This document shows, in pieces, positions 3,935 to 23,052 of a DNA stretch of 23,165 nucleotides. Position 1 is the stretch's first letter. Each line of letters begins with the position of its first letter. Source of the stretch: a virus; IMG/VR virus record IMGVR_UViG_3300034061_003404, positions 1-23,165 of that record, one strand, 5' to 3'. The position numbers and the translations under genes are program-made. Below the pieces are notes generated by a model. That model was not told the DNA's origin. It searched no databases and worked only from the letters and a program-made list of their open reading frames with translations.

Positions 3935-4152
3935 ATAGGAAGTCGAGAAGATTTAGGCAGGAAGTTCAATGACTGTGCTTCGGCTTTAATCTTTTCAACA
4001 ACAGGCTTTGACAAATGCTTGGCAATATATGAAGGATCTATATTGTGTAATTCACAAATTTGTAGAACCGCATCCATATAAGAACAATTCTTCTTTTTAA
4101 TTATCTTTTCAATTTCATTTTGAATATTTAATTCACCAGATTCAAGTATCAT
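3931..4152 (-). CDS. gp33: gp33-like late transcription co-activator
   Basis: A 73-residue protein resembling the conserved part of T4 gp33 (112 residues), which links RNA polymerase to the sliding clamp and activates late genes together with gp55. The middle motif CSYMDAVLQICELHNIDPSY followed by IAKHLSKPVVEKIKAEAQSL matches the pattern in T4 gp33 (MSYLEATTAFLEEN..., IIEKIQSEAIDENLL). The ATG at 4152 follows GGAG 10 nt away. An upstream in-frame ATG at 4203 lies inside the epimerase gene and is less likely. It overlaps the epimerase gene by 11 nt and gp32 lies immediately downstream. Two TATAAATA late promoters in the window agree with a gp33/gp55 system. The protein lacks much of the N-terminal part found in T4. 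Confidence 0.82.
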   Translation of the reverse strand: MILESGELNIQNEIEKIIKKKNCSYMDAVLQICELHNIDPSYIAKHLSKPVVEKIKAEAQSLNFLPKSSRLPI

Positions 4153-5050
4153 ATTCTTTATTCTCCATATATTCCTTAAGACATTTGGTTGGTTGCCATC
4201 CAAGAGTTTGTTTAATTACAAAAATATCGGCACAAGTTTGTCTTGCTTCTCCAGTTCTTGGTGCAACATGAGTATACTCTCCACCCATCATTTTTGCAAG
4301 ATCTAAAACAGAATATGATGTACCAGTTCCAACATTCATTATCTTACCACAAAGATTTGTATTGTGATTCATTGCTGCAATATTAGCAGAAACTACATCG
4401 GATACGTGAATATAATCTCTGGTTTGCAAACCATCTCCAACAACCGTCATTAATTGATTTGCTTTCTTTTGACGAGAGAATACACCAATTACAGGCGCAT
4501 ATGATCCGCGTTTTGGTTGTCTTGGACCATACACATTAAAATATCTAAAACAAGCAGTATCCAGATTGTACAAATCGGAGTACATTTTGCACAATCCTTC
4601 TGAAAAAAATTTAGAATATGAATAAGCATTTAAACAATCTGGTTTGTCGGATTCTTTTTGAATTGCCTTATTTGTCAATCCATAGATCGCAGAAGTACTT
4701 GAAAAAATTACACGTTTTGCTTTAACCATTTTGGCAGCATTCAATACATTTTGAGTACCAAAAGTATTAATATCTAATGCTCTACCGGGATTCAGTATAC
4801 AATTTTGTATTCTTGCCTCTGCTGCTAAATGAAAAACGTACTCAGGTTCATGACGATCAAATACACCATTTACAAGATGTTCATTTGTAATATCGTAATG
4901 ATAGTATTTTGCTTGTGGATTGAAATAGAATTGATCGTGTGCATCGGATGAGAGATCATCCATAACAGTAACATCATGTCCCTGTATAATTAATTCATCT
5001 ACAAGATTTGATCCAATAAATCCACAACCACCTGTTATTATTGTTTTCAT
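4142..5050 (-). CDS. NAD-dependent sugar-nucleotide epimerase/dehydratase (GalE-like)
   Basis: A 302-residue extended short-chain dehydrogenase that would convert an NDP-sugar, most likely as a 4-epimerase of the GalE/WbpP type. The Rossmann motif TGGCGFIG is at residues 6-13. The catalytic set is SST at 117-119 with Y143 and K147 (YSYSK). Substrate-side motifs NVYGPRQ (172-178) and RDYIHVSDV (211-219) are typical of this group. The length is slightly short of GalE (about 338 residues). Its ATG overlaps the aminotransferase stop by 4 nt, so the two are probably made together. The exact sugar cannot be read from the sequence. Confidence 0.88.
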   Translation of the reverse strand: MKTIITGGCGFIGSNLVDELIIQGHDVTVMDDLSSDAHDQFYFNPQAKYYHYDITNEHLVNGVFDRHEPEYVFHLAAEARIQNCILNPGRALDINTFGTQNVLNAAKMVKAKRVIFSSTSAIYGLTNKAIQKESDKPDCLNAYSYSKFFSEGLCKMYSDLYNLDTACFRYFNVYGPRQPKRGSYAPVIGVFSRQKKANQLMTVVGDGLQTRDYIHVSDVVSANIAAMNHNTNLCGKIMNVGTGTSYSVLDLAKMMGGEYTHVAPRTGEARQTCADIFVIKQTLGWQPTKCLKEYMENKEYDT

Positions 5051-6153
5051 TTTGTTACCACATTAGAATTGTAATTTATAACCATGTCACAAATATATTC
5101 TAATTCCATATCAGTTAATTCAGGATATGATGGTAAAATTATACATTCGTTATTTAGAGTAGTTGCTATTTTATTGTTTGATTTAATATGTCGTAAATGC
5201 TTGTGTACATCTATAGGATAAAACATTGGTCTTGTTTCTATTCCAACCGAGTCAAAATACTTTTTAGATACTGCATACGATAGATTATTTTCAATTCTAA
5301 GACCAAACAACCACATGGAATGCTTAGTGTTGTTTTCCGCACTTTGTAAAGAAATTCCGTCTATATTTCTCAACAATGTTTGATATGTATTGAAGATTTT
5401 AGTTTTTCTGTTTTTAATTTCTTCATAATAATCCAATTGACCTAATAATATAGCAGCATGAATATTAGTCATTCTGTAGTTATATCCTAATACATCATGA
5501 ATAAATCGTTCTTCTGTTTGTCCTTGTCCATGAACTTTATTTAAATATTGATATAATTCAGTATTATTAGTATAAACTGCTCCACCTTCTCCTGTGGTGA
5601 TGTTTTTGTTACCAAAGAAAGATATTGCAGAACAAAAAGATTCAGATCCAGACATTTTGTTTTCGTATTCACCAAATATACCTTCACAATTATCTTCTAT
5701 GAATATTGATTTTGGATACTTTTCTTTTAATTTTGGAACATTTACTATATTACCAAGATTATGAACAACCAAAAAAATTGTATTTTCGTCGGGTTCAAAC
5801 GGAAGATTTGAGTAATCGGCATTCCATGTGTTTATATTTGCATCTATTGGATAGATATCAAATTCATGCAAATCGTCATATAATATGGCATTATATGCAG
5901 CAATATAAGCATTATTTGGAACTATAACTTTCTTTGCATTTGGATATAAGAACTTTATACCTTTAAATAAAAGATGGGTTGCGACTGTTCCATTGGAAAC
6001 AAGTAAAGAGTGCTTAACTCCCAATGTCTTTGATAATTTATTTGATGCTATGTTTTTATACTTGCCTAAAGATGAAATCCATCCACTTTTTATTGCATCG
6101 TATGCATATTTTAGTGATTCTTCCGGTAAGTATGGTTTGTAAATTGGAATCAT
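5047..6153 (-). CDS. per: GDP-perosamine synthase-like aminotransferase (DegT family)
   Basis: A 368-residue PLP-dependent sugar aminotransferase. Family landmarks are SNGT (53-56), EDNCEG (153-158) and the Schiff-base lysine K183 in SFFGNKNITTGEGG. Details match Vibrio RfbE/Per perosamine synthases as I remember them: WISSLGKY near 25-32, HGQG, HDVLGYNYRMTNIHAAILLG and ETRPMFYPIDVHKH. Such enzymes convert GDP-4-keto-6-deoxymannose to GDP-perosamine, and the required first enzyme, Gmd, is encoded in the same cassette at 13.4-14.5 kb. It sits between the epimerase (4-nt overlap) and the methyltransferase (1-nt gap). A different 4-keto sugar substrate remains possible. Confidence 0.82.
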   Translation of the reverse strand: MIPIYKPYLPEESLKYAYDAIKSGWISSLGKYKNIASNKLSKTLGVKHSLLVSNGTVATHLLFKGIKFLYPNAKKVIVPNNAYIAAYNAILYDDLHEFDIYPIDANINTWNADYSNLPFEPDENTIFLVVHNLGNIVNVPKLKEKYPKSIFIEDNCEGIFGEYENKMSGSESFCSAISFFGNKNITTGEGGAVYTNNTELYQYLNKVHGQGQTEERFIHDVLGYNYRMTNIHAAILLGQLDYYEEIKNRKTKIFNTYQTLLRNIDGISLQSAENNTKHSMWLFGLRIENNLSYAVSKKYFDSVGIETRPMFYPIDVHKHLRHIKSNNKIATTLNNECIILPSYPELTDMELEYICDMVINYNSNVVTK

Positions 6154-6154
6154 A

Positions 6155-6766
6155 TTAAATAGTTTTTATGAGATGCGCCAAACCTGTATGTCCTTCCAAT
6201 ACAGATACAAGTTTGAATCCATGAAAATTTGTGCTTTGTAAATATTGCTTAACAAAATTACCTCTACCTCCAGATATAGACCAATCATGTAAACATACAT
6301 GTGTGCCTTTTTTTAATTTATTTTCTAGATATTTGAAGGATTGTACATTTTCTGATAAATTTACATTTTTCAGATATTCATCTACTGGTAATTTGGTATT
6401 ACTATCTTCCGCTTCGTCGCCGCCATCTAAAAACACAAAATTAATTTTATCAAACATTTCATCATTTAAATCTAAAATACCATCATTAAATCTTTTATTA
6501 ACTAAATTAACAAATTTTTTGTCTTTTTCATTATTAAATGTCATACAAGCAGTATCATAAAATTGTTTATATTCTTCATATGTGTATAAGACGCCATAAT
6601 TGTTATCAACTAGAGAAGAAACTATACTTCTTGTGCTTCCTGCTCCTGTACCAGTTCCAGATTCTAAGCATATATTTGGTCTGAATTGTTTAATTAAATC
6701 ATATAAAAAATTTGCTTCTTTTATTGAAATTCTGCCTTGTAATTCGTTACTTTGTAGTTCTGCCAT
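6155..6766 (-). CDS. Class I SAM-dependent methyltransferase
   Basis: A 203-residue protein with the methyltransferase motif I ESGTGTGAGS (residues about 35-44) and a later acidic strand FVFLDGGDE (motif III-like, about 110-118). It resembles the small Methyltransf_24 type found in glycan clusters. The C-terminal part holds LHDWSISGGRGNFVKQYL, where DWS..G.G recalls the metal/substrate site of CmcI/TylF-like sugar methyltransferases. It would probably methylate a sugar hydroxyl or a GT product. The substrate is unknown. Confidence 0.7.
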   Translation of the reverse strand: MAELQSNELQGRISIKEANFLYDLIKQFRPNICLESGTGTGAGSTRSIVSSLVDNNYGVLYTYEEYKQFYDTACMTFNNEKDKKFVNLVNKRFNDGILDLNDEMFDKINFVFLDGGDEAEDSNTKLPVDEYLKNVNLSENVQSFKYLENKLKKGTHVCLHDWSISGGRGNFVKQYLQSTNFHGFKLVSVLEGHTGLAHLIKTI

Positions 6767-6778
6767 AATTTTATTTTC

Positions 6779-7087
6779 TTAATAAGTTTTATGTTTTCTT
6801 TGTATATGTTTTCCAGAATCTAAATCAGATCCTAATAATCCATCTTTAACTATTTCCAAAACTTTTTCGTCTATTTCGTCAATTAGAGTATTTCGTTGAA
6901 CATTTAAATCACATGCCTTTTTTAAGCATTCCCACAATCTCAAAGATCCATCTTCCTGTAAGAAATATTTTTCCTTATATTCCTCGAAGGTCATTCTACG
7001 AATTTCGTACAACAATTCCTGATTATTCCACATTTTCATATCAATTGTTATTAGTTTATCAATTAGTCCACCAAATGTATCAGCCAT
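6779..7087 (-). CDS. Small cassette protein, DUF4254-like
   Basis: A 102-residue protein beginning MADTFGGLIDKLITIDMKMW, with a basic C-terminus ending KHKTY. The TFGGLIDKL...K.W start is a pattern I associate with the DUF4254 family, short helical proteins embedded in glycosyltransferase clusters of bacteria and phages. No catalytic motif, signal peptide or membrane segment is visible. It lies 12 nt upstream of the methyltransferase and 1 nt downstream of the acetyltransferase. Function unknown. The family assignment is from memory. Confidence 0.6.
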   Translation of the reverse strand: MADTFGGLIDKLITIDMKMWNNQELLYEIRRMTFEEYKEKYFLQEDGSLRLWECLKKACDLNVQRNTLIDEIDEKVLEIVKDGLLGSDLDSGKHIQRKHKTY

Positions 7088-7088
7088 T

Positions 7089-7508
7089 TTAAAATTCCTT
7101 TATCATTTCTAAATAAAATTCATTTACTTTTTTTATTTTGAAATTAAATTTATTGTAAAGATTTATAGCAACACTATTATTTATGTCAACGCTTAGATGT
7201 ATTTTTTCTATATTATTTAATTTACAAGTAGAAATCATATGATTTAATATAAATGAACCAATACCATATCCTTGATATTTTTTACTAATACAAATCCCAA
7301 ACCAATTTATATTATTTTCATTTTCAATATGATAATAACCAATTGCAGCATCATTCAAATATAACAGATAAGAGCAAATATGAGTTTTAAAAATATCATA
7401 TGGTCTATTTGAAAAATATCTAAATGATTTTGTTTCTTCTTTACAAGATTCTATGAATTCTTTTAATTCATATTCATTTGTTATATTTTTTAATATTAAA
7501 TTATTCAT
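7089..7508 (-). CDS. GNAT family N-acetyltransferase
   Basis: A 139-residue GNAT protein. The acetyl-CoA pyrophosphate loop is QGYGIG at 79-84. It is preceded by the strand WFGICISKKY and followed by LSVDINNSVAINLYNKFNF, the usual GNAT C-terminal motif. In this position it could acetylate an amino sugar such as the perosamine made by the neighbouring aminotransferase (inference). The coding sequence is extremely AT-rich: one sampled 60-nt line holds 13 G/C. Confidence 0.85.
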   Translation of the reverse strand: MNNLILKNITNEYELKEFIESCKEETKSFRYFSNRPYDIFKTHICSYLLYLNDAAIGYYHIENENNINWFGICISKKYQGYGIGSFILNHMISTCKLNNIEKIHLSVDINNSVAINLYNKFNFKIKKVNEFYLEMIKEF

Positions 7509-7513
7509 GTGAA

Positions 7514-8356
7514 TTATGTTAGAAGTTCTTTGTATGTTTTTAATATGTTTTGTTCTGGTAAATACAGTTTAGCCATCCATATAAAATTATTGTTATGGCA
7601 GATCACTTTTACATTTTTATTTAATCCAAGACTAATTAGATAAGAACCACTAAATCCTATTTGTATAACTTCATTAGCATTTTTTACTAAATTATATTCA
7701 TAAACAAATTTATCAATATTAGGTTCATGCATTAAATGTTCTTGAGTTAAATCAATTACTTTATCTTTATCCAGTTTATCTATTAATTGATAGTATATTG
7801 AATACACCCAATGTTTGTATGAATTGTATTCAGTATTTTTATTATAATCTACTATTCTATCTCCCATGAGAATTATCTTACCATTGTAGCAATTTAAATA
7901 TTTAATAAGATATTGGATGTTTGAATCATTCAATGTTTTATCGTATTCACGAATTTTTACATTTATCACAACATAATTATAATTTGGTTTTTCAAAATCT
8001 TCCTTATGTACTATAAAACTTAAATCTTTTGGTTTAAATTCAACATCTAATAATTTAGAATAATCATGAGTACAAATAGATCCAGTATCCAAAGGATCAT
8101 CTATTAGTTGAAATCTAGGATCTTTAAATACACATTTTGCTAATGACTGTGTAAATTTATGCAAAGATTCAGAATATTTATTATCATTTCTATAAAAATA
8201 TAAAACACCATAATCTATCCTAATTTTAACAGACTCAAATCTATTAAATAATTCACTACCATAAATGTAACAATTTATTAGATCACCTATACCCGGATTA
8301 GTTTGTAAGTGTGGTATATTGGATTTGAAAATATGTTTTTTAATAGTTTCTATCAT
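7514..8356 (-). CDS. Putative GT-B-type glycosyltransferase
   Basis: A 280-residue protein with no certain family match. An N-terminal GIGDLINCY resembles the G-D-I loop of GT9/heptosyltransferase-like and related GT-B enzymes. A late segment VIQIGFSGSYLISLGLNKNV resembles their nucleotide-binding half, where a Gly-Ser-rich turn precedes a helix. Several Tyr/Asn-rich stretches reflect AT-rich coding. It overlaps the next upstream gene by 4 nt, whose product has a similar N-terminal loop, so the two may be distant relatives. Its role as a sugar transferase is inferred from cassette position and fold hints. Confidence 0.45.
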   Translation of the reverse strand: MIETIKKHIFKSNIPHLQTNPGIGDLINCYIYGSELFNRFESVKIRIDYGVLYFYRNDNKYSESLHKFTQSLAKCVFKDPRFQLIDDPLDTGSICTHDYSKLLDVEFKPKDLSFIVHKEDFEKPNYNYVVINVKIREYDKTLNDSNIQYLIKYLNCYNGKIILMGDRIVDYNKNTEYNSYKHWVYSIYYQLIDKLDKDKVIDLTQEHLMHEPNIDKFVYEYNLVKNANEVIQIGFSGSYLISLGLNKNVKVICHNNNFIWMAKLYLPEQNILKTYKELLT

Positions 8357-9207
8357 TCTTTATGATATCCCTGTATTGTAAATGTATTATTTGCTCCTTG
8401 ATACATTGGATATTTTCTTTTGCATAATATTTCGGAACAATCTTGCCATATTAAATTCCAATCATGTATGGAATTGTTTCCCCAAATTGCTCCTCTCCAT
8501 GCATGTAAATTTAATTTTGGTTTGCTCATGTCATATATTTTAGCTTCTATTAGACAACGAATAGAACTTTCCATTAAATGTAATTCTGAGGCATTTTCCA
8601 AAACTTTGCCCAAATCCATTATGCTATAGTTTTTTGGATTATCTATTATTTTTATTTTGCTATTTAAACATTTTCTACTAGGAGCAATCATTTGTCGCGT
8701 CATATCATCAATTGCAACAAAAATATACTCTTCATTATTTGGATTTAATTCTGTATAAACTTGATTTTCTCTCTCAATGTCTCTATCAAAAGAAAAACCA
8801 TCAAATCGTAGTTCATATGGAACTTGTGTTTGCATATAAAAACATTGATCACAAGAAACATGTTGTGATATTTTTTTATGACATTCATTTTCCATCCAAC
8901 TAAAACCTACTTGATAATAATCTCCACTATTTCCAGTTAACCAATCGACTACACCATTATGATGCAAAGAAACTCCACAATTTTTTAAATATTCATTTAC
9001 TTGTTTCTGCTCGTTAGTATGTCCCTTTAGTGGTATCAATTCTACTTTTTTGTTAAAGTATAGTTTTTTTAAATTTTCTAGATTATGCTCCCAACAAAAT
9101 AAAAACATCTTATCAACATTCCATCTTTTAATAAGTTCCAAAACCATTCCATTACAACAAAAATGATCACCTAGACCCATGTGATGGTGTAAATATTTTA
9201 TTTTCAT
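8353..9207 (-). CDS. Putative glycosyltransferase with MGLGDH motif
   Basis: A 284-residue protein starting MKIKYLHHHMGLGDHFCCNG. The HHMGLGDH loop at residues 7-14 recurs in phage and bacterial GT-B-like proteins of glycan clusters. The C-terminal half contains LGKVLENASELHLMESSIRC, similar to the donor-binding half of such enzymes (an S/E-rich turn after a strand). It has start/stop overlaps of 4 nt on both sides. No DxD motif is apparent, in keeping with a GT-B type. Specific donor and acceptor cannot be inferred. Confidence 0.5.
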   Translation of the reverse strand: MKIKYLHHHMGLGDHFCCNGMVLELIKRWNVDKMFLFCWEHNLENLKKLYFNKKVELIPLKGHTNEQKQVNEYLKNCGVSLHHNGVVDWLTGNSGDYYQVGFSWMENECHKKISQHVSCDQCFYMQTQVPYELRFDGFSFDRDIERENQVYTELNPNNEEYIFVAIDDMTRQMIAPSRKCLNSKIKIIDNPKNYSIMDLGKVLENASELHLMESSIRCLIEAKIYDMSKPKLNLHAWRGAIWGNNSIHDWNLIWQDCSEILCKRKYPMYQGANNTFTIQGYHKE

Positions 9208-9968
9208 GTATTATCCTTGTAAAAATTAATATCTTCATCGCTTACGCTTTCTATTCTTCCAATATAATCATTATCATAATTATCGTATTTTTTATATTCT
9301 TGAGAGCGTTGTTCTTTGGTGGTAGCATTCAAATACATCAATATATCGTTTTGAATAAATTCTCGCATTGGTTCTTTTCTTGGTATTGGAAATTTTTTAG
9401 CACCTTCTCCAAAACGATCCATAAAATCATGAACCAATGAATTATTTTTTACCAGAGGATAAATGACCTCTTTTAAAAATTCTTGATCTATATTTTTTCT
9501 ATTGTTTGTTTCTTTTCTACTATAATTATCTATCAATGATTTCATATTTGGTACTGCTCCTTGCATTGCACCCCACATTCCACCCATAATTTTGGCACTA
9601 TGTGAGCGATGATCTCTCATTATATGAAACATTTTTTTACTTGCAATCCATTCATCAACTGCTGCTTTATCTCTTATGTTTAAATAACTGTCACAGTCTC
9701 TAGAAATCATAATATCTACGGTTGGATCGCTTGCTGGATAAAATCTCCAAAACATACCATTCCAACCCTCATCTTCGCCCATCAAAACAATTTCAGAATT
9801 ATCTCTACTGTTTATAAAATTTACAATATTTTGCGGAACATTCGGTGATAAATGGACTCTACAGGTCCAACCTTCAAAAAACTGTTTTGCTAAATCTAAA
9901 TTTTTTATTAAATTTATTGTATATTGCGGAGAAGAACCCCACAAACTATATGATATTACTTTTTTCAT
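9204..9968 (-). CDS. GT-A-like glycosyltransferase, paralogue A
   Basis: A 254-residue protein starting MKKVISYSLWG. The central segment RFYPASDPTVDIMISRDCDS provides a DxD-like motif (RDCDS), expected to hold the metal and nucleotide sugar in GT-A enzymes. MGGMWGAMQGAVP follows. The neighbouring upstream gene encodes a protein with the same order of motifs (ISYSLWG, RFYPA, SRDTDS, MGGLWGA), so the two arose by tandem duplication. Compared with its paralogue it is shorter by 56 residues. 4-nt overlaps join it to both neighbours. Confidence 0.65.
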   Translation of the reverse strand: MKKVISYSLWGSSPQYTINLIKNLDLAKQFFEGWTCRVHLSPNVPQNIVNFINSRDNSEIVLMGEDEGWNGMFWRFYPASDPTVDIMISRDCDSYLNIRDKAAVDEWIASKKMFHIMRDHRSHSAKIMGGMWGAMQGAVPNMKSLIDNYSRKETNNRKNIDQEFLKEVIYPLVKNNSLVHDFMDRFGEGAKKFPIPRKEPMREFIQNDILMYLNATTKEQRSQEYKKYDNYDNDYIGRIESVSDEDINFYKDNT

Positions 9969-10897
9969 ATTATCTTCTCCGAACCATGTTCGTGCTGTAC
10001 TGGACTAAAACCATACTTGTATTGTTTAATTAAATACTGTTTATAATATTTAAAAATATTTTCTCGTTCTTGTTTTTCTTCTTCACTTAAATTCAGATAT
10101 TTTATTTCATCTTGTGTTAAAGATTCGACTTTTCCAATATATTTATTATCGTGTTTTAACCCGCAATGCACACAAGTATGGTAACATTCGCCATATTGTC
10201 TGGGAATAGGCATTTTTCGCATCTCATCATTTACATGAGGAAGTCGGCTAAAACCGGGAAACCTCAAACAACCAAATGCAATATCATCATGAGAAATTAT
10301 ACTAATTTGATTTGGATCATATGTTCCTAATTTATTAATTTTTTCACAATTTGCATCTATTTCACCAACAGCATACAAATAAACTTTTGAGTTTAAAAAA
10401 TCTTGATCGCACCCCTTTCTAGCAGATCCATTTTTTACTTTCTTTAACATAAAATCAATATGAGGTTTAATCCAATTTAAATAACCCCTTTTAGCACCCC
10501 ATAATCCACCCATCATTTGGGATTGATGTACGCAAGTATCTCTTATGACATGAAGTTTTTTTGTACTCACTAACCATTGATCCACACACGCTTTTTCTCT
10601 AAAAGAAAGTCGGCTATCGGTATCTCTACTTAGCATTACCTCAACATCATCTTCTGTGGCAGGATAAAAACGATAAAGCATTCCACCCCAACCAACATTA
10701 TCATTGTAAAATACAATTTCTACATTATCTTGTTTTTTTAATTCTTCAACTACCCATTGAGGAACTGATGGTTCGTGAATATAAAAACGACATATCCATC
10801 CGGGATATATTTCTTTTGCTTGTTTTGCGTTCGAAATTGCACCAACGGTATACAGAGGTAAATCTCCCCAAAGACTATATGATATTATTTTTTTCAT
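9965..10897 (-). CDS. GT-A-like glycosyltransferase, paralogue B
   Basis: A 310-residue protein starting MKKIISYSLWG, with RFYPATEDDVEVMLSRDTDS (DxD motif), then MMGGLWGAKRGYL. The pattern is shared with the next gene downstream (paralogue A). An insertion in the C-terminal half contains a CVHCG-type Cys/His cluster (CYHTCVHCGLKH) that could bind a metal and is missing in paralogue A. The remaining C-terminus is charged. Its ATG overlaps the upstream stop by 4 nt. Confidence 0.65.
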   Translation of the reverse strand: MKKIISYSLWGDLPLYTVGAISNAKQAKEIYPGWICRFYIHEPSVPQWVVEELKKQDNVEIVFYNDNVGWGGMLYRFYPATEDDVEVMLSRDTDSRLSFREKACVDQWLVSTKKLHVIRDTCVHQSQMMGGLWGAKRGYLNWIKPHIDFMLKKVKNGSARKGCDQDFLNSKVYLYAVGEIDANCEKINKLGTYDPNQISIISHDDIAFGCLRFPGFSRLPHVNDEMRKMPIPRQYGECYHTCVHCGLKHDNKYIGKVESLTQDEIKYLNLSEEEKQERENIFKYYKQYLIKQYKYGFSPVQHEHGSEKII

Positions 10898-11484
10898 TTA
10901 TTTCTCTTCATAAACTTTACTGTTTCAGATTTTGCAGAATCAAATTGGTAGATATACATCCGATCACCAATCAGTGCTTCTGTTTTCATTAATCCACTAT
11001 CCCACAAGCGGTGAGAATAATCTTGATCTTCACCGTGAGATATTTCGGGATATCGTACTTGTCTTGCAATACTAGTTTTAATTGTATTCAAATGGTTTGG
11101 TGTGCGAAATTGTATTCCATCTTTGCGGAAATGCCCACCGCAGTTCAAATTATGAATAAATGGTAGATTGTATTTTGGTAAGAAACCAACAAGTTCTACG
11201 ACATCTGGCTTTGATTCTAGTGCTTTTAAAGTTTTAGAAACGTAGATATTCGTGATCATATCATCGTCATCAATAAAGCAAACATATTCACCTCTTGCTT
11301 TGTCCAAGACGGTGTTTCGCTTTTTACCAACACTGTTTTCACCATTATCAGTTTCGGTTATGATCTCAATTTTATCTTGAGCATTTTCTGCTGCAATTTG
11401 TTTATTGAGTTCCGTAAGTAATTGATTATAAACATGCGCGCGTTTTGGTAAATGTAAAATACCTATAGTCCATAATATACTCAT
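10894..11484 (-). CDS. GT2-like glycosyltransferase
   Basis: A 196-residue protein with a compact GT-A/GT2 layout: an N-terminal strand ILWTIGILHLPKRA, the basic segment GKKRNTVLDKARGEYVCFID, then DDDD (DxD) near residue 77, and later HGEDQDYSHRLWDSG, which resembles the ED acceptor/catalytic-base motif of GT2 enzymes. It is shorter than typical GT2 proteins (over 220 residues) but appears complete. 4-nt overlaps join it to both neighbours. Confidence 0.75.
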   Translation of the reverse strand: MSILWTIGILHLPKRAHVYNQLLTELNKQIAAENAQDKIEIITETDNGENSVGKKRNTVLDKARGEYVCFIDDDDMITNIYVSKTLKALESKPDVVELVGFLPKYNLPFIHNLNCGGHFRKDGIQFRTPNHLNTIKTSIARQVRYPEISHGEDQDYSHRLWDSGLMKTEALIGDRMYIYQFDSAKSETVKFMKRNK

Positions 11485-12146
11485 AGTGGAAATCCTCTTT
11501 GTTTTCTTGATTCAAATACTTGTTTATCGCTATGATAAAATTTTTCAGTGTGTTGTCTTAGATTGTCTTTTATATCATTCCAATCATGTGTGATAATTTT
11601 ATTGTTTATATCAACAATTTTATTTAAAGATCTGGCAATAACAGTTTGTTCTTCATCACAAAATAAACTAGTGTACTCTGGATGATATATGTAATTAAAT
11701 CTTTTATAGTATGGATTTCCTATAATTGAAAGTACCATAACTTTTGGATATGCATGACCTCCACAATTATAATTTAATGCACCATCTAAATCTGGAAAAT
11801 GCATATTCATATCATTGATTATTATTTCATCAAATCCATGAACTCTTGGTGTCATGTCATCTGAAACTAAAACACAAACTTTCCAACCATCTGTTGGAAT
11901 ATTACGATTACATGCATGTATTTTATTTTGACTATCACCGTAATGATATTCCAAATCAATTCGTGATTTCATATCTTCTAAGAAATAGCGCATTGGATTA
12001 TTATTGCAAGTTTCGTCATTCAAATCCATAGAAATAACAAACTTGACTTTATATTTGCCAGATAATTTATTTACATATTCCGAAAGAATACGTTTAAATT
12101 GATCTGGTCTGGCTCGTGTTGGATATTTAATTAATAAGTCTATCAT
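11481..12146 (-). CDS. GT2-like glycosyltransferase
   Basis: A 221-residue protein starting MIDLLIKYPTRARPDQFKRI, the opening strand and basic loop of GT2-like enzymes. The DxD equivalent is VLVSDDMTPR near residues 92-101. A later NCGGHAYPKVMVLSI and the ED-like CDEEQTVIARS complete the layout. It belongs to the run of genes with 4-nt overlaps. The sugar donor is unknown. Confidence 0.65.
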   Translation of the reverse strand: MIDLLIKYPTRARPDQFKRILSEYVNKLSGKYKVKFVISMDLNDETCNNNPMRYFLEDMKSRIDLEYHYGDSQNKIHACNRNIPTDGWKVCVLVSDDMTPRVHGFDEIIINDMNMHFPDLDGALNYNCGGHAYPKVMVLSIIGNPYYKRFNYIYHPEYTSLFCDEEQTVIARSLNKIVDINNKIITHDWNDIKDNLRQHTEKFYHSDKQVFESRKQRGFPL

Positions 12147-12820
12147 AGTAAAGGTTCACTGTTTGGAAAATTATTTGCTTTGCGTTCCCTGTAAATTTTC
12201 TCCGCTACCTTTGTATTTCCTGCTGGAATGGTGGGATGAAATTTATGAGTTCCGCGAAGTCGATGCTCATGGTATTGCTTCAAGTCGCCGCGTATCCACA
12301 AGCAATTGTATTTAGTTGCAACTTGATATAGTTCCGTATCCGCCCACATGTGCCAATATTCTTCCCACATTGGACCTTTACCTTGATTGATTTTTTCCCT
12401 AAACTCTTTACCCAACCAAGCACTTCCGCAGATTTGTTCACAGGTATCACAAGCCATGCTTCCAAACTTATCACCGTATGGTTGCATTACACCAAAAGTA
12501 CCACCAAAATGACGAACAAATTGTAAACGTAGTTGGTGTGCTTCATAATCTGAATCTGGGTACATATCATCACCAGCAGCAATTATTATTTCATAATCAG
12601 ACAATAATCCAGATAGGTAATTTACTGCTTTGGGCCAACCTTGATAACCACCAATGCTAGATTCTGCAACGATAATATCGGCTAATCCTGAGTATTGAGA
12701 AAGCAATCTATCTGGAACAATTACGGCAATCTTATAACCTTTACTTTTCCAAACCGGAAAAGTTTTCTTTGCCATTTCTATATTTGCACTGGGTAGTGCT
12801 AACCACACATCTTCTTTCAT
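12143..12820 (-). CDS. GT-A-like glycosyltransferase
   Basis: A 225-residue protein starting [20 protein letters not shown]. The segment YEIIIAAGDDMYPDSDYEAH (about 75-95) supplies the DxD-type motif. A W-rich segment MWEEYWHMWADTELYQVATK includes an ADTELY motif equivalent to the ED motif of GT2 enzymes. The C-terminus is short and charged. It is related in layout to the neighbouring downstream gene (SDDM against GDDM), though similarity outside the motifs is low. Start and stop each overlap a neighbour by 4 nt. Confidence 0.65.
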   Translation of the reverse strand: MKEDVWLALPSANIEMAKKTFPVWKSKGYKIAVIVPDRLLSQYSGLADIIVAESSIGGYQGWPKAVNYLSGLLSDYEIIIAAGDDMYPDSDYEAHQLRLQFVRHFGGTFGVMQPYGDKFGSMACDTCEQICGSAWLGKEFREKINQGKGPMWEEYWHMWADTELYQVATKYNCLWIRGDLKQYHEHRLRGTHKFHPTIPAGNTKVAEKIYRERKANNFPNSEPLL

Positions 12821-13428
12821 TTTCCTACCTTTGTTTTAAGTCTTCTGCTTGCTTGCATATGTTCAACTACTACTGGTTGTTCTGGTTCAAACCATTTGCA
12901 GTCAAATACTTTGCAATATGACTGTGGAAAATTAAAAGTACGCAATCCCATTTTATCATAAGATTCCCATACCTTTTGTAAACTTTGTTGCTCCCAACGA
13001 TTGGGATTGTTTCTGCTTTCAACTTTCCATGTATTGATTAGACTTCTTGCAAGCGGAGTATTGTTAAAATACATTGTACCTCCAGCAAGAGCCTCATTAC
13101 CAAGATTCCAAGGTTTTAAGTGTGCATTTTTTGGTTGATTCCAAACATTAGGAATCCAATAACAGCCAAAATCATAATCACCAAGTTTATCAAACAATTC
13201 TGGTTTATTTCTAAATCTACCATCAGCATCCACCCAAATAACACCACCTTGACATTCATGTAGTGCTTGTTCTATTACTTCGGCTTTCATGGTGCAATTA
13301 TGAACCCAAGAACCTTTACTTTCTTTGGGATATGCTTTTACTGGCAATTGAAAATTGTTGCAAGTCTTAACAAGTTCAATTGCTTCTTCTTTATATTCTG
13401 GTGTATAAAAAGTAATTACAGTTACCAT
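12817..13428 (-). CDS. Nucleotide-diphospho-sugar transferase-like protein
   Basis: A 203-residue GT-A-like protein. Landmarks are [18 protein letters not shown] (about 39-56), WVDADGRF (DxD), [10 protein letters not shown] and the C-terminal [10 protein letters not shown]. The gene at 14456-15082 encodes a protein with the same landmarks ([29 protein letters not shown]), so the two are paralogues placed on either side of gmd. This layout resembles small nucleotide-diphospho-sugar transferases of the DUF268/PF03407 type, but I am not certain of the family name. It overlaps gmd by 7 nt. Confidence 0.65.
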
Positions 13429-14459
13429 TTTGGTTTTAAATTCTTATCATGGATATGAATCGTATAATCTCTTCTACCAAGTTCAAAATCGTGCTCTGTC
13501 ATCATGTTTACTAGACCATCAAAATCTACTTTTGGTTGCCAACCAAGAACGGTTCTTGCTTTTGTAGAATCTCCTAGCAACTGATCTACTTCGGCTGGAC
13601 GATAGTAACGCGGATCAATTTCAACATAATCCTCATAGTTCATGTTATATTTTGAAAATGCTTTTTGACAGAATTCACGAACCGAATACATTTTTCCAGT
13701 TGAAACAACATAATCATCTGGAGTATCTTGTTGTAACATTAGCCACATTGCTTCGACGTAATCCCCGGCAAATCCCCAATCACGCAAAGCGTCTAAATTT
13801 CCAAGATACAATTTCTTTTGTAATCCTTGATAAATTCTACCAATTGCTCTTGTAATCTTTCTTGTTACGAATGTTTCACCTCTGCGTGGACTTTCGTGAT
13901 TAAAAAGAATACCACAAGAAGCGTGCATTCCATAACTTTCTCGATAGTTTACAGTTAAGTAATGTGCATATACCTTCGCACAACCATAAGGAGAGCGGGG
14001 ATAGAATGGTGTAGTTTCCTTTTGCGGAACTTCTTGTACCTTACCAAACATTTCGCTACTGGATGCCTGATAGTAACGAATCTTCTTTCCAGTTCTCTGC
14101 TCATACTCTCGTATTGCTTCCAGAGCATTTAGAGTACCAATACCAACCACTTCACCCGTGTATACTGGAGCATCGAAAGATACTTTAACGTGGCTTTGCG
14201 CTCCAAGATTATAAAACTCGTCTGGGTTATATTTGTTTATTACATTTGAAATTGTATTATAGTCTGATAGATCACCGTAATGTAAAAACAGAGTCTTATT
14301 ATAGACCTCTGGATTGTTCATTAAATGTTCAATTCTTGCTGTATTGAAGGAAGAAGAACGACGAATTATGCCATGTACCTCGTAACCTTTCTCCAACAAA
14401 AGATCTGCGAGATAAGAACCATCTTGACCAGTTATTCCTGTAATTATTGCTTTTTTCAT
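13422..14459 (-). CDS. gmd: GDP-mannose 4,6-dehydratase
   Basis: A 345-residue Gmd, full length for the family. It converts GDP-mannose to GDP-4-keto-6-deoxymannose, the precursor of GDP-fucose, GDP-rhamnose and GDP-perosamine. The NADP-binding motif is GITGQDG (8-14), with RR.SS near 33-37. The active site includes S135/E136 (SSSEMFG, 133-139) and Y158/K162 (YGCAK). [15 protein letters not shown] (187-201) is diagnostic of Gmd. No fcl/GDP-fucose synthase is present in the window, while a perosamine-synthase-like gene is. Both ends overlap neighbours (7 and 4 nt). Confidence 0.96.
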
Positions 14460-15082
14460 TGTCTATTCACTTTCTGTTCTACTGAAGCTAAACGATGTAA
14501 AATCACTGCACCTTGACGACCGTGCATTCTATCTATCTGACAATAAGACTGTGGTAAAAACTCTGTCTTGGGTTGTATGTCACACCAAGCCTGTTGCAGA
14601 GTCCATTGATCCCAATCCGTTGGTTTTTCGTTTTTTAATTGAATCCATCTATCGCACAGTTTTATACTGTTTTCACAAACTCGCATAAAAATAGTACCAG
14701 AATTAAACCAACATGGAGTAACTGTTTGCGGCCAATTATTAGGTAAATGAATTCGTTCTCTACCAGCCGGTATTTTACTTTTACCGCCTGGTTCTCCCCG
14801 AATCATAAATTCTTGATCACCTAATAAAAACAAATCAGGATATTTCACGATCTCCGCATCGCTGTCGATCCATACTATGCATTCATTCTTTGGTGTTTGT
14901 AACAGCATAGTTTTCATAAACTGTGCCTTTATAGCACAGTTCTTGACCCAAGAACCCATGTCCTCTTGGAGTTGAATTACATAATTCAAAGAATACTTTT
15001 CTAAACTTTTTTCTAAGTTTTTTATAAGTTTAGGATATATTCCAGTATTTGTATAGAAAGATACAAATGTTACTTTGTTCAT
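14456..15082 (-). CDS. Nucleotide-diphospho-sugar transferase-like protein, second copy
   Basis: A 208-residue paralogue of the product at 12817-13428. Shared features in order are an opening VTFVSFYT strand, [23 protein letters not shown] (DxD), SGTIFMRV and LPQSYCQID. The ending differs and is rich in basic residues. It lies directly upstream of gmd with a 4-nt overlap. Donor and acceptor are unknown. Confidence 0.65.
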
Positions 15083-15945
15083 TTTTTACGCTTATGTAGC
15101 AAATCAAAATATGTTGTCATATTTACTTTTTTGCGTTCAGCCTCTTGTTGTTTTTTAGCGTTCATCATTTTTCTATATTCATGACGATTTCTGTCAATTT
15201 CTGACATTTTTTTGGCTTGTTGTTTTTGTTTTACTTCTTCTCGTATTCTTTCAATAGATTGAGAATACGACATTGTTGGACGAACCGGATCATTTTTTTT
15301 TACTTTATCTAAAATGTCATGTGTGAATTTGGGAACAAATTGTTCAAAAATAGGTCCACATTCCCACGAATACCATTCGTATCCTTTTTGTTTTGCAACT
15401 GGATACCAAGTAACAAGAGCATCTTTTATCTGATCTAATGTCTTTTTAAAATTATGCTGTTTCTTTTTATCAAAATTTTTCAATTCGTATGAATACTTTG
15501 TGTCGAATGATTGTGCTTCTAAATCATTTCCAGCAAAAATAATATTTTTTACTCCAGAAACGTGCAACCACTGTATGGCAAATGTAAGAGTCTTGTGTGG
15601 ACCACGCAACAAAGGTTTATACGGATCGAATAGTAAAGTTTCATACTGTCTGTTTGCTTCTCTACCTTCGTGATAGGGATGCATCAATACCGATTTACCC
15701 GGTGATCTTGGTGTTTTATTTGGTATTACTTTTTGAATTAATTCATTTTCCCAAGCCTCTTTACCCTCATCACCGTGCATCTCATTTAGATGATCGGCAA
15801 TAAACCAATAATCCGGAGTTTTTACAGATCGTATTGCTGTGCTAATTGCACATATTGGTAGTCCTAAAGAAAACACATCTACTTTATTTAAAGATGGTCC
15901 AGAACAAGCAACAACACAAGTATCAACTGGAAACTGATAGTTCAT
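15079..15945 (-). CDS. DUF115/GT42-like protein with basic coiled-coil tail
   Basis: A 288-residue protein. The N-terminal VVACSGPSLNKVD (about 11-23) is the GPSL loop seen in DUF115 (MptE-like) proteins and in GT42 sialyltransferases. ISTAIR, DYWFIADH and NIIFAGND follow the same fold order. The last 70 residues are very rich in K, R, E and Q, and look like a long charged helix, not a usual part of these families. DUF115 proteins are linked to glycosylation of flagella and surface structures, which fits the cassette. It overlaps the exonuclease gene by 23 nt. Confidence 0.6.
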   Translation of the reverse strand: MNYQFPVDTCVVACSGPSLNKVDVFSLGLPICAISTAIRSVKTPDYWFIADHLNEMHGDEGKEAWENELIQKVIPNKTPRSPGKSVLMHPYHEGREANRQYETLLFDPYKPLLRGPHKTLTFAIQWLHVSGVKNIIFAGNDLEAQSFDTKYSYELKNFDKKKQHNFKKTLDQIKDALVTWYPVAKQKGYEWYSWECGPIFEQFVPKFTHDILDKVKKNDPVRPTMSYSQSIERIREEVKQKQQAKKMSEIDRNRHEYRKMMNAKKQQEAERKKVNMTTYFDLLHKRKK

Positions 15946-19198: not shown

Positions 19199-19271
19199 CT
19201 CCCCGAACTGGACTCGAACCAGTGACATGCGAGTTAACAGCTCGCCGCTCTACCAACTGAGCTATCAGGGA
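19199..19271 (-). tRNA. trnN: tRNA-Asn (anticodon GTT)
   Basis: Acceptor TCCCTGA/TCGGGGA, D-stem GCTC/GAGC, anticodon arm GCGAG-CTGTTAA-CTCGC, T-arm ACTGG-TTCGAGT-CCAGT, G73 as usual for Asn. The 5' end overlaps the last 7 nt of the cREC gene, whose TGA stop lies in the acceptor stem. Confidence 0.95.
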
Positions 19272-19645
19272 ATGTTTCTCAAAATTCCGTCCAAACTTCT
19301 CATCAGTACCGGATCATTCCAACAACCGGCAACTTTAAGAATTTTGTAACCAAAATTCTGAAGCAAAGTATGTATGTTGTTTCCACCAACAGGATTCATG
19401 GTATGAACAACGACCATACCACACTTAATATTATGCTCTACCATGTATTTTGCAACATCATAACCGGTCTTAATTTCATCACCAAGATCGTGATCTAAAA
19501 ACACAATATCGTATTGGCGATAACCAAAACCATTAGTTGCAGCATTATAGTTGATAGCCCAAGCCGCACACCAATTCATTTCTGTTGCTTGCTTGGAATA
19601 TTCACTCCAACGCTCAGTACTATCATCTACAAACAAAGTATTCAT
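19265..19645 (-). CDS. Cyclic-phosphate-processing receiver-domain (cREC) protein
   Basis: A 126-residue protein matching the cREC group of receiver-like domains. The N-terminal acidic pair is FVDDSTERW (D7, D8). The central DIVFLDHDLGD (D46, D51, H52, D53) and the C-terminal VVVHTMNPVGGNN (H81, N84, P85) are the signature that sets cREC apart from ordinary response regulators. This family was predicted to act on cyclic phosphates at broken RNA ends as part of RNA repair. No output domain is present. It sits among tRNA genes, overlaps tRNA-Asn by 7 nt and overlaps the preceding gene by 4 nt. Confidence 0.8.
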   Translation of the reverse strand: MNTLFVDDSTERWSEYSKQATEMNWCAAWAINYNAATNGFGYRQYDIVFLDHDLGDEIKTGYDVAKYMVEHNIKCGMVVVHTMNPVGGNNIHTLLQNFGYKILKVAGCWNDPVLMRSLDGILRNIP

Positions 19646-20605: not shown

Positions 20606-20960
20606 GTGGTTGTTGAGGATTTCTCCCCAACAACCGTGATCCGTTCAGTCGCGGGTGGATCAGACCCCACTGCTTCAAGCAGCCATTGCCATTGGTGCGG
20701 CAATCAATTTTTGCAACTGTTTATTTACGACACTTGTTACCCGTGTCGGGTATCTCCTTCTTCATTACTCTGCGTCAATCGAAGCCAGTTCAGCCCCTTA
20801 AATACCTGAAGCCCGGGCTTCAGGAATTGCCCCCTGCAAAGAGGACTTTACTCGCCATCTCTAATAGACTTGCAGAATCTATTTCGGTTAGGCTAATGGA
20901 GCCGAGGGGAATCGAACCCCTGTGTTGTTCGCATTTCAATCCAATATCAACAATACCAAA
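20606..20960 (-). ncRNA. ssrA: Circularly permuted two-piece tmRNA
   Basis: tmRNA rescues stalled ribosomes by acting as Ala-tRNA and then as mRNA for a degradation tag. Here the 3' half is encoded first. The acceptor piece (about 20960-20897) ends with T-arm AGGGG-TTCGATT-CCCCT, CGGCTCC and A73. After a 99-nt spacer the coding piece starts at 20797 with GGGGCTG. The two ends form seven pairs with G3-U70, the Ala identity pair. GGCTTCGATT is the D-like loop. P2 forms from TTG/CAA and CGCA/TGCG. PK1 is clear: TACCC/GGGTA encloses GACAC, which pairs with GTGTC (20752-20729). A tag frame ends AAPMAMAA-TGA at 20677-20675 inside hairpin CTGCTT/AAGCAG. Two further hairpins follow (20637-20662, 20608-20635). 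Outer ends are approximate. Confidence 0.9.
20798..20896 (-). other. Internal spacer of the permuted tmRNA precursor
   Basis: The 99 nt between the acceptor A73 and the coding-piece G1, expected to be cut out by RNase P (5' of GGGG) and 3' trimming. It contains a perfect 20-nt palindrome at 20805-20824 (CCTGAAGCCC with its complement), likely a strong hairpin that brings the two halves together. CCA is not encoded after A73. Confidence 0.75.
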
Positions 20961-22276: not shown

Positions 22277-22822
22277 TCAACCTATTTGCACTCCGTTGCA
22301 AACCTTAGAGCAGTAATCATACATTGCGATACCGCTGGCTGTTCCAACATTTAGACTTCTCACTGATCCATACTGCCTAATATACACCAACTCATCACAC
22401 AAGTCAAGCAGTTTCTTCGGGATTCCAATCTGCTCCTGTCCAAAAATCATGAGGACAGGCTTACTGCATGGCCAACTAAACTCATCAATTGGCTTAGCAT
22501 CTCCAACATTGTCAACACCAACAACATACATGCCACGCATTGCCTTTAGAAGTTCTGCTTCTTGATCTTCCTTAAAATGGCGGAAGTGGGTATAGTTGTG
22601 TGTACCGACAGTTCCACGACGATCATATTGCTTATTTCCATAAATCCAAACGGAGTTGGCTAGAAATGCATTAGCATTACGAATCACCGTAGCAATGTTG
22701 AAATCATTTCCAAGATTACTGCAAAGAACAGTAAAGTTGTTGCGCTTGGTGTCAAGATCTGCAACAATATCATCGTGCTTCCAATAATGATAGTGGTCGA
22801 TGATGTTACGAGTTTCGCTCAC
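22277..22822 (-). CDS. SPOUT-family (TrmH/SpoU) RNA 2'-O-methyltransferase
   Basis: A 181-residue SPOUT methyltransferase. Motif 1 is NLGNDFNIATVIRNANAF, with the conserved N and R. Motif 2 is PVLMIFGQEQIGIP. Motif 3 is IRQYGSVRSLNVGTASGIAM. These three form the knotted SAM site of TrmH-type enzymes, which methylate the 2'-OH of tRNA or rRNA residues. The start is GTG at 22822 with GGAGG 7 nt upstream, giving a 4-nt overlap with the previous gene. The longer ATG-initiated frame contains that gene's region. It lacks an extra substrate-binding domain, so it is close to the minimal SPOUT length. tRNA genes follow directly downstream. Confidence 0.9.
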   Translation of the reverse strand: MSETRNIIDHYHYWKHDDIVADLDTKRNNFTVLCSNLGNDFNIATVIRNANAFLANSVWIYGNKQYDRRGTVGTHNYTHFRHFKEDQEAELLKAMRGMYVVGVDNVGDAKPIDEFSWPCSKPVLMIFGQEQIGIPKKLLDLCDELVYIRQYGSVRSLNVGTASGIAMYDYCSKVCNGVQIG

Positions 22823-23052
22823 TTGTCGTCCTCCTTTCGTGGCACAGGGACAATCGTCACCAGATCGTCGGGAGGTGCAGGAAGGTCGCGCACACCGCGT
22901 AGCACCTCTTGACCGAGCAACAGCAAGCGACATTCCCGCCTCGCCTCGTCGCGCTCTTTGATTAGCCGCTCAATCACTTCTGCGATCTCATCGGCACAGT
23001 TGATGCTGTGAGACAGTCTCTTGATCCTTGCGATGGCATCGTGTTCGTTCAC
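22819..23052 (-). CDS. Hypothetical small protein, GC-rich
   Basis: A 77-residue protein beginning (V)NEHDAIARIKRLSHSINCAD, mostly helical and charged, with a Pro-rich tail PAPPDDLVTIVPVPRKEDDK. No family is recognised. The GTG start at 23052 follows AAGGAGG at ideal spacing. The gene is much richer in GC (38 of 60 in one line) than others in the window. It is the first gene after a consensus promoter and overlaps the TrmH-like gene by 4 nt. Confidence 0.65.
   Translation of the reverse strand: MNEHDAIARIKRLSHSINCADEIAEVIERLIKERDEARRECRLLLLGQEVLRGVRDLPAPPDDLVTIVPVPRKEDDK

Follow-up and report, generated by a model that had tools for sequence, protein, structure and literature searches.

The locus examined here raises two questions: what is encoded on the minus strand at positions 20606-20960 of a viral DNA stretch, among nine phage tRNA genes, and what occupies the segment lying between its two parts. 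The stretch, hereafter the window, comprises 23,165 nucleotides (nt) (positions 1 to 23,165 of IMG/VR virus record IMGVR_UViG_3300034061_003404). The locus was found to be a circularly permuted transfer-messenger RNA (tmRNA) gene. Judged by comparison with related records, the first 69 nt of its spacer are a conserved structured RNA (hereafter the element) and not filler. The explanation considered best, and thought very probable as a whole, is that of a two-piece phage tmRNA which would be processed by the host and whose intervening segment would be an optional site at which small structured RNAs can land. Permuted tmRNAs of phages are already known as a kind, and that of the window is another lineage, unusual in its spacer.

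The permuted tmRNA gene

A permuted two-piece tmRNA had been proposed for this region from the letters of the DNA (the original prediction), with a covariance-model search and ARAGORN suggested as checks. The Rfam model RF04321 (tmRNA_permuted) matched window positions 20957-20675 on the minus strand at 69.5 bits, over its gathering cut-off of 47 (E 9.6e-12), and this score exceeds chance. ARAGORN as run called no tmRNA in the window, but it called tmRNA*, which we take to be its mark for the permuted form, in 22 of the 37 related phage loci given to it (of the 89 parsed besides the window). The permuted format is borne out by RF04321, by covariation in the acceptor stem and in pseudoknot PK1, and by conservation of the tag frame, with the mature pieces being predicted. 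The positions proposed for A73 (20897) and G1 (20797), together with the 99-nt spacer and its 20-nt palindrome, proved exact. The features of the locus are as follows:

20897..20957, minus strand: 3' half of the tmRNA, transcribed first (from the RF04321 start at 20957, sequence and parser; 5' end approximate)
20921-20905, minus strand: T-arm of the 3' half (from sequence)
20904-20898, minus strand: 3' strand of the acceptor stem, CGGCTCC (from sequence)
20897, minus strand: A73, without an encoded CCA after it (from sequence and parser)
20798..20896, minus strand: whole intervening segment of 99 nt between A73 and G1, not expected in the mature tmRNA (from the parser)
20828..20896, minus strand: conserved 69-nt structured element within the intervening segment (from covariation on 36 distinct cores and model R1)
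20805..20824, minus strand: 20-nt palindromic hairpin, an optional part of the intervening segment (from sequence and the 37-row alignment A1)
20606..20797, minus strand: 5' half with the mRNA-like domain, G1 at 20797 (GGGGCTG) (from Rfam and folds; 3' end approximate)
20713..20748, minus strand: pseudoknot PK1, CGACAC/GTGTCG and GTAAC/GTTGC (from pairing in the alignment)
20675..20701, minus strand: tag frame GCC GCA CCA ATG GCA ATG GCT GCT TGA, predicted to read AAPMAMAA, 11 nt after PK1
20670..20682, minus strand: hairpin with the tag stop codon (99.1% paired, one pair doubly changed)
20637..20670, minus strand: pseudoknot PK2, GTGGG/CCCGC and TGATCC/GGATCA (from own versus swapped partner strands)
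20608..20635, minus strand: terminal hairpin GGTTGTTG...CAACAACC (from folds)

Related records were gathered by five pattern scans of IMG/VR contigs, which gave 25, 28, 58, 85 and 55 stretches, and by a sixth scan for the long spacer type described below, which gave 6. Two loci (L051 and L055) were added by way of relatives of the gp32-like protein; they hold the only parsable tmRNAs among 80 such loci, most of which end short of the tmRNA position. The parser demanded GGG at positions 1-3, A73 and at least six of seven acceptor pairs, and 90 records including the window carried both halves. Those left out were repeats of one contig (L001, L027-L030, L141), records cut by the end of a contig or locus or left unparsed (L004, L018, L112, L121, L166, L175), phage contigs whose tmRNA matches look one-piece by eye (L006, L008, L011, L015, L024), a record with the 3'-end pattern only (L122), phage Melnitz, and L021. 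The last holds, at ~2395 on the plus strand, a permuted-looking tmRNA that appears by eye to be of a different lineage with CCA encoded, and its spacer of ~70 nt also looks able to form hairpins. When the window region and the L149 tmRNA were searched with blastn against 50,697 phage records, the matches among those listed were only on the tRNA-Leu side or of T-arm size, so no isolate with this tmRNA lineage was found at that sensitivity.

The distant ends of the gene had been proposed to pair with a G3-U70 pair. All seven acceptor pairs form in the window, this one included, and G3-U70 was found in 90 of 90 records across 11 acceptor-stem combinations (e.g., GGGGCTG/CGGCTCC, GGGGTCG/CGACTCC, GGGTCCG/CGGATCC, GGGACCG/CGGTTCC, and GGGCCTA/TAGGTCC). 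The G3-U70 wobble pair is an alanine identity element. When both mature pieces were co-folded without constraints, the acceptor stem and T-stem formed, as did a helix joining one piece to the other. In a test restricted to the first 50 nt of the 5' half, 11 of 300 controls made by mononucleotide shuffling folded equally well, so that folding energy alone is weak evidence. A CCA after A73 is encoded in none of the 90 records, the first bases there being TT in 83 and CT in 7.

For the mRNA-like domain, the alignment comprised 47 distinct 5' halves, each of 165 nt, taken from 66 parsed loci. The four helices tested were paired in 94.5% of cells and had 5 doubly changed pairs, a number reached by 1 of 500 shuffles (mean of the shuffles 2.2). 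Three of the five belong to stem 1 of PK1, which the original prediction had called clear and which was located at 20748-20713; this stem is 98.2% paired and has double changes at three of its six pairs. Stem 2 (GTAAC/GTTGC) is 97.9% paired (46 of 47 sequences) with one-sided changes only, and 82.1% pairing was found for a hairpin spanning the tag codons. Both PK1 and the acceptor pairing are kept in the related phages, not disrupted.

The tag frame ending in Ala-Ala and a stop within a hairpin, also foreseen, was recovered as a frame of eight codons in all 90 records, with 16 peptides, of which AAPMRMAA, ANQLAMAA and ANELAMAA are the commonest. It starts 10 nt (52 records) or 11 nt (38 records) after PK1 and its stop is TAA in 68 records and TGA in 22. 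In the window it ends GCT GCT TGA (20683-20675), with the stop inside the hairpin at 20682-20670, and the tag would read A-AAPMAMAA. The tags given by ARAGORN end in the common frame in all 22 called loci. In 11 of these they start at the shared codon, and the other 11 begin upstream, at a GCA overlapping PK1 stem 2 or earlier still. Where the spacing is 11 nt, as in the window, this upstream GCA does not lie in frame, and the shared tag start is therefore preferred.

PK2, the terminal hairpin and the conserved spacer structure were absent from the original prediction. The strands of PK2 vary widely; over 23 distinct strand pairs the mean stem was 6.8 base pairs (bp) with the own partner, compared with 5.3 bp with swapped and 4.5 bp with shuffled partners. 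The search picks the longest stem and 87% of shuffles reach 4-bp stems, and short PK2 stems are therefore weak evidence.

A conserved element in the intervening segment

The description of the spacer as 99 nt with a palindrome, although exact, undersells it, as the 69-nt structured RNA was overlooked. Conservation of the element was assessed on 36 distinct cores from 62 records, with a mean column identity of 81% compared with 82% for the 5' halves. Its model consists of a 3-bp closing helix P0 (GCC/GGC), a hairpin P1, a linker GANNNAA and a hairpin P2, with the P1 loop CUGC pairing with the P2 loop GCAG as kissing loops; the register given to P2 is tentative. Pairing is kept in 96.0% of cells, and 10 of the 19 pairs are doubly changed, compared with a shuffled mean of 4.3 (0 of 500 as high) and at most 3 for slid structures. 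P0 switches from C-G to G-C in two sequences, and a kissing pair from C-G to U-A in two; in one sequence, A-U replaces G-C as the outer P2 pair. The unpaired bases of the element are strongly conserved.

The third, palindromic hairpin has double changes at seven of nine pairs and is missing from 6 of the 37 rows of alignment A1. A pairing of the segment start with this hairpin (AGCCTA/TAGGCT), which competes with P0, is found in 39 of 62 cases. Searching Rfam with 20790-20905 at E<=10 gave three matches to two unrelated families, all far below cut-offs, and no ribozyme or riboswitch was among the Rfam matches to the window segment. The glutamine riboswitch models RF01739 and RF01704 were not among the window's Rfam matches; a glutamine riboswitch was found beside the Melnitz tmRNA, which served as positive control. 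Rfam holds models of the hepatitis delta virus (HDV)-like kind. The helix order of the element presumably differs from the HDV-like fold.

Among the 90 records, the spacer was found to contain the short element in 62, a remnant in 3, an unrelated segment of 122-173 nt in 8, and 5-6 nt in 17 (TTCAC, CTTTAC, CTATAC, CTTAC, or TTCGAC). One of the last group, L051, was reached through the gp32-like protein search and not by a tmRNA pattern. The remnant is an identical 31-nt piece of the short element in L178, L180 and L187, in which both tmRNA halves still parse, and its sequence points to decay of the element. Records with and without the element can be closely alike elsewhere. Over nt 31-165 of the 5' half, L147, which has the element, shows no difference from L169, which lacks it, so that the element looks optional; as their acceptor arms differ, arm and segment were likely exchanged together. 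L176 (long segment) and L130 (short element) match at 133 of 135 nt of the 5' half.

The long segment occurs in L010 (2199-2364, minus strand), L022, L113, L114, L123, L176, L183 and L190, in five distinct sequences with GGTTAG/CTAACC ends. Its helices are compensated (e.g., CCGGC/GCCGG to CTTGC/GCAAG), and some copies have a hairpin-loop stretch able to pair with the bases just before G1. Rfam returned tmRNA parts and weak matches only for this segment.

Copies of the element appear to be confined to these tmRNAs. Each of the 58 stretches found by the spacer pattern lies next to one or both tmRNA halves, with 54 parsed whole, L141 repeating L055, and L004, L018 and L121 running off the contig end. 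Model R1 was built from 37 sequences, scores 84.3 bits at the window element (the window being in its seed), and was searched against 162 sources from the loci gathered earlier (1.64 Mb including overlapping loci). It gave 64 matches of at least 66 bits, all within these tmRNA spacers, and one further match of 16.3 bits (L158, E 0.31). A bacterial origin was rejected, as the exact pattern gave 3 stretches when bacterial and archaeal contigs (257 Gb) were scanned, where ~3 are expected by chance; no tmRNA was seen by eye in the 110-220 nt inspected of each. No credible copy of the element outside these tmRNAs was found by R1 over the 1.64 Mb or by the pattern over the 257 Gb.

Known systems and neighbouring genes

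Whether other phages with a permuted tmRNA had been described was left open by the original prediction, and this can be answered in the affirmative for Melnitz and others (PMC9004378), as verified on the Melnitz record. In that 2022 paper, phage Melnitz is reported to have a two-piece tmRNA, and 53 of the 133 unique phage tmRNA structures are two-piece, with 50 from marine or aquatic phages; a glutamine riboswitch is proposed to control ssrA in Melnitz. The number of bacteriophage tmRNA sequences is put at 79 in PMC11915505, which also describes RF04321, and PMC4131195 lists earlier phage tmRNAs. No paper on structured spacers in permuted tmRNA was found in the open-access literature searched, and one may exist elsewhere in print.

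Melnitz (MZ577097, a Methylophilales phage) and related marine T4-like phages have a permuted ssrA in a T4-like (Kyanoviridae) phage, as is the case here, and Melnitz, like the window, has genes for a PD-(D/E)XK nuclease and a single-stranded DNA-binding protein in the same region. The T4-like context, which had also been claimed, agrees with PHROG matches to single-strand DNA-binding protein and baseplate hub. However, the Melnitz tmRNA is alpha-type (RF01849, 106.7 bits) and encodes CCA, whereas that of the window is below the beta cut-off and has no CCA. The Melnitz spacer of ~142 nt bears no resemblance by eye to that of the window, and its glutamine riboswitch lies just 3' of the tmRNA. 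R1 found no element in two searched stretches of the Melnitz genome, in contrast to the structured spacer of the window. The betaproteobacterial permuted tmRNA (RF01850, beta_tmRNA) has the same gene order, and the window aligns over the whole of its model, scoring 50.6 bits (cut-off 84); of eight loci scanned, the five relatives listed score between 37.1 and 58.0 bits. At the spacer this alignment passes over 30 positions of the model, compared with 98 nt present in the window.

By its gp32-like protein, the closest isolate is Pelagibacter phage HTVC008M (56% identity over full length). Between the gp32-like and PD-(D/E)XK nuclease genes, a sugar/glycan gene block was observed at 4142-15945 on the minus strand, with an NAD epimerase, a DegT aminotransferase, a GDP-mannose dehydratase and an acetyltransferase; the other six of the ten genes tested had weak or no Pfam matches. 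A SpoU-type RNA methyltransferase (PF00588, 85.4 bits), which is a phage-encoded RNA-modification gene, lies beside the tRNA genes at 22277-22933 on the minus strand. A cyclic-phosphate processing receiver domain (PF20274, 60 bits) is encoded among them at 19265-19645 on the minus strand. A link between the element and this neighbouring cREC_REC gene was considered and rejected, the gene being present in only 2 of 16 contigs, one of which is that of the near relative L030.

Proposed maturation and competing explanations

The gene order, acceptor pairing, PK1, tag frame and element, with its presence, absence and replacement, are established at the level of sequence comparison. We infer from them how processing, charging, tagging in infection, and the release and function of the element would proceed. 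A single precursor would be transcribed in the order 3' half, intervening segment, 5' half, and its distant ends would pair into the acceptor stem with G3-U70, bringing the halves together. The tRNA enzymes of the host would then excise the segment, with RNase P acting at G1 and with 3' trimming and CCA addition, so that the mature tmRNA would consist of two pieces. Once charged by the alanyl-tRNA synthetase of the host, this RNA would be loaded with the host's SmpB on stalled ribosomes, phage or host, and the tag A-AAPMAMAA would be added to the stalled products. Rescue of ribosomes or replacement of the host tag during infection, and resistance to RNA-cutting defences, which the original prediction suggested, would be possible roles. 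Neither an SmpB gene (10 large contigs searched) nor a CCA-adding enzyme (16 contigs searched) was found, so host factors are probably needed, although the contigs may be incomplete. Small structured RNAs would be able to land, optionally, in the intervening segment and would be freed by the cuts which mature the tmRNA.

Several results weigh against this interpretation. The 90 records are interrelated, amounting to 70 distinct precursors, and those of the window and L023 are identical. RF04321 passed its cut-off on 10 of 10 contigs scanned, among them L011 (54.1 bits), whose tmRNA looks one-piece by eye; a match to RF04321 alone is therefore no proof of permutation, which is shown by the order of the halves. 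The window falls short of the RF01850 cut-off despite aligning over the whole model. Full pairing of the acceptor stem in 89 of 90 records is partly built in by the parser rules, but the variety of partners and the presence of U70 (not C70) are not. Further pair types were not above shuffles in the 5' halves (alignment A2, 278 of 500 as high) or in alignment A1 (487 of 500), and not clearly above them in the element (alignment A3, 17 of 500). The P1 pair 12-35 fails in 15 of 36 sequences. Single-sequence folds are unremarkable for both the window spacer (z -1.52, 13 of 200 shuffles as good) and the long segment (z -0.66, 50 of 200), and with such energies not being significant the case for the element rests on comparison.

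It is put forward tentatively, as a possibility on which we would not insist, that in this T4-like phage group the segment of the permuted tmRNA is a carrier site for autonomous structured RNAs, with at least two unrelated elements that would be released by processing, one of them possibly a new self-cleaving ribozyme or a small phage RNA that targets the RNA machinery of the host. As the conserved features are also kept by tmRNAs which lack the element, the latter is unlikely to be required for maturation, and for that reason we favour an optional carried RNA.

It seems unlikely that the element is instead a processing element or self-cleaving ribozyme which frees the tmRNA ends without host enzymes, in the manner proposed for theta ribozymes at phage tRNAs. 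According to PMC10879173, only 4.5% of phage tRNAs encode CCA, and theta ribozymes are found at the 3' ends of CCA-less ones. The element likewise starts directly after A73 of a CCA-less end (CCA encoded in 0 of 90) and its unpaired bases are strongly conserved, as such a role would suggest. However, 17 of 90 tmRNAs have 5-6 nt only and 3 keep the 31-nt remnant. The first base after A73 is T (83) or C (7) and never G, unlike in theta ribozymes, even if a cut a few bases inward is possible. The sole exact 6-nt complement of the segment 5' end lies in the optional third hairpin (39 of 62), and the Rfam matches described above include no ribozyme. A theta- or HDV-like identity of the spacer was rejected, being unsupported by these matches, by the first base, or by comparison with PMC10879173; the element also differs in being optional.

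Still less probable is an aptamer or regulator which would sense a ligand to control tmRNA maturation. The compact pseudoknotted fold with invariant unpaired bases would suit such a role, and the glutamine riboswitch directly after the Melnitz tmRNA, proposed in PMC9004378 to control ssrA, offers a parallel. However, the Rfam matches to the window segment contain no riboswitch, and the element lies inside the transcript rather than in a leader and is missing in 17 of 90 records. A functionless gene, decayed or inert after its capture as a tmRNA copy from a host, is very improbable given the compensatory changes in the acceptor stem, PK1 and stop hairpin and the open tag frame in 90 of 90 records.

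Phage tmRNAs are known, yet little work on them was encountered. This lineage shows a tmRNA gene under selection in phages, with pairing and tag frame kept through change, and a conserved structured RNA, present in some records and lost or swapped in others, can reside in a segment deemed throw-away. Should the element be released and functional, the permuted form would have a use beyond its history, carrying small RNAs ready to be processed, and the element would stand as a concrete candidate for a ribozyme or regulatory phage RNA of a new kind.
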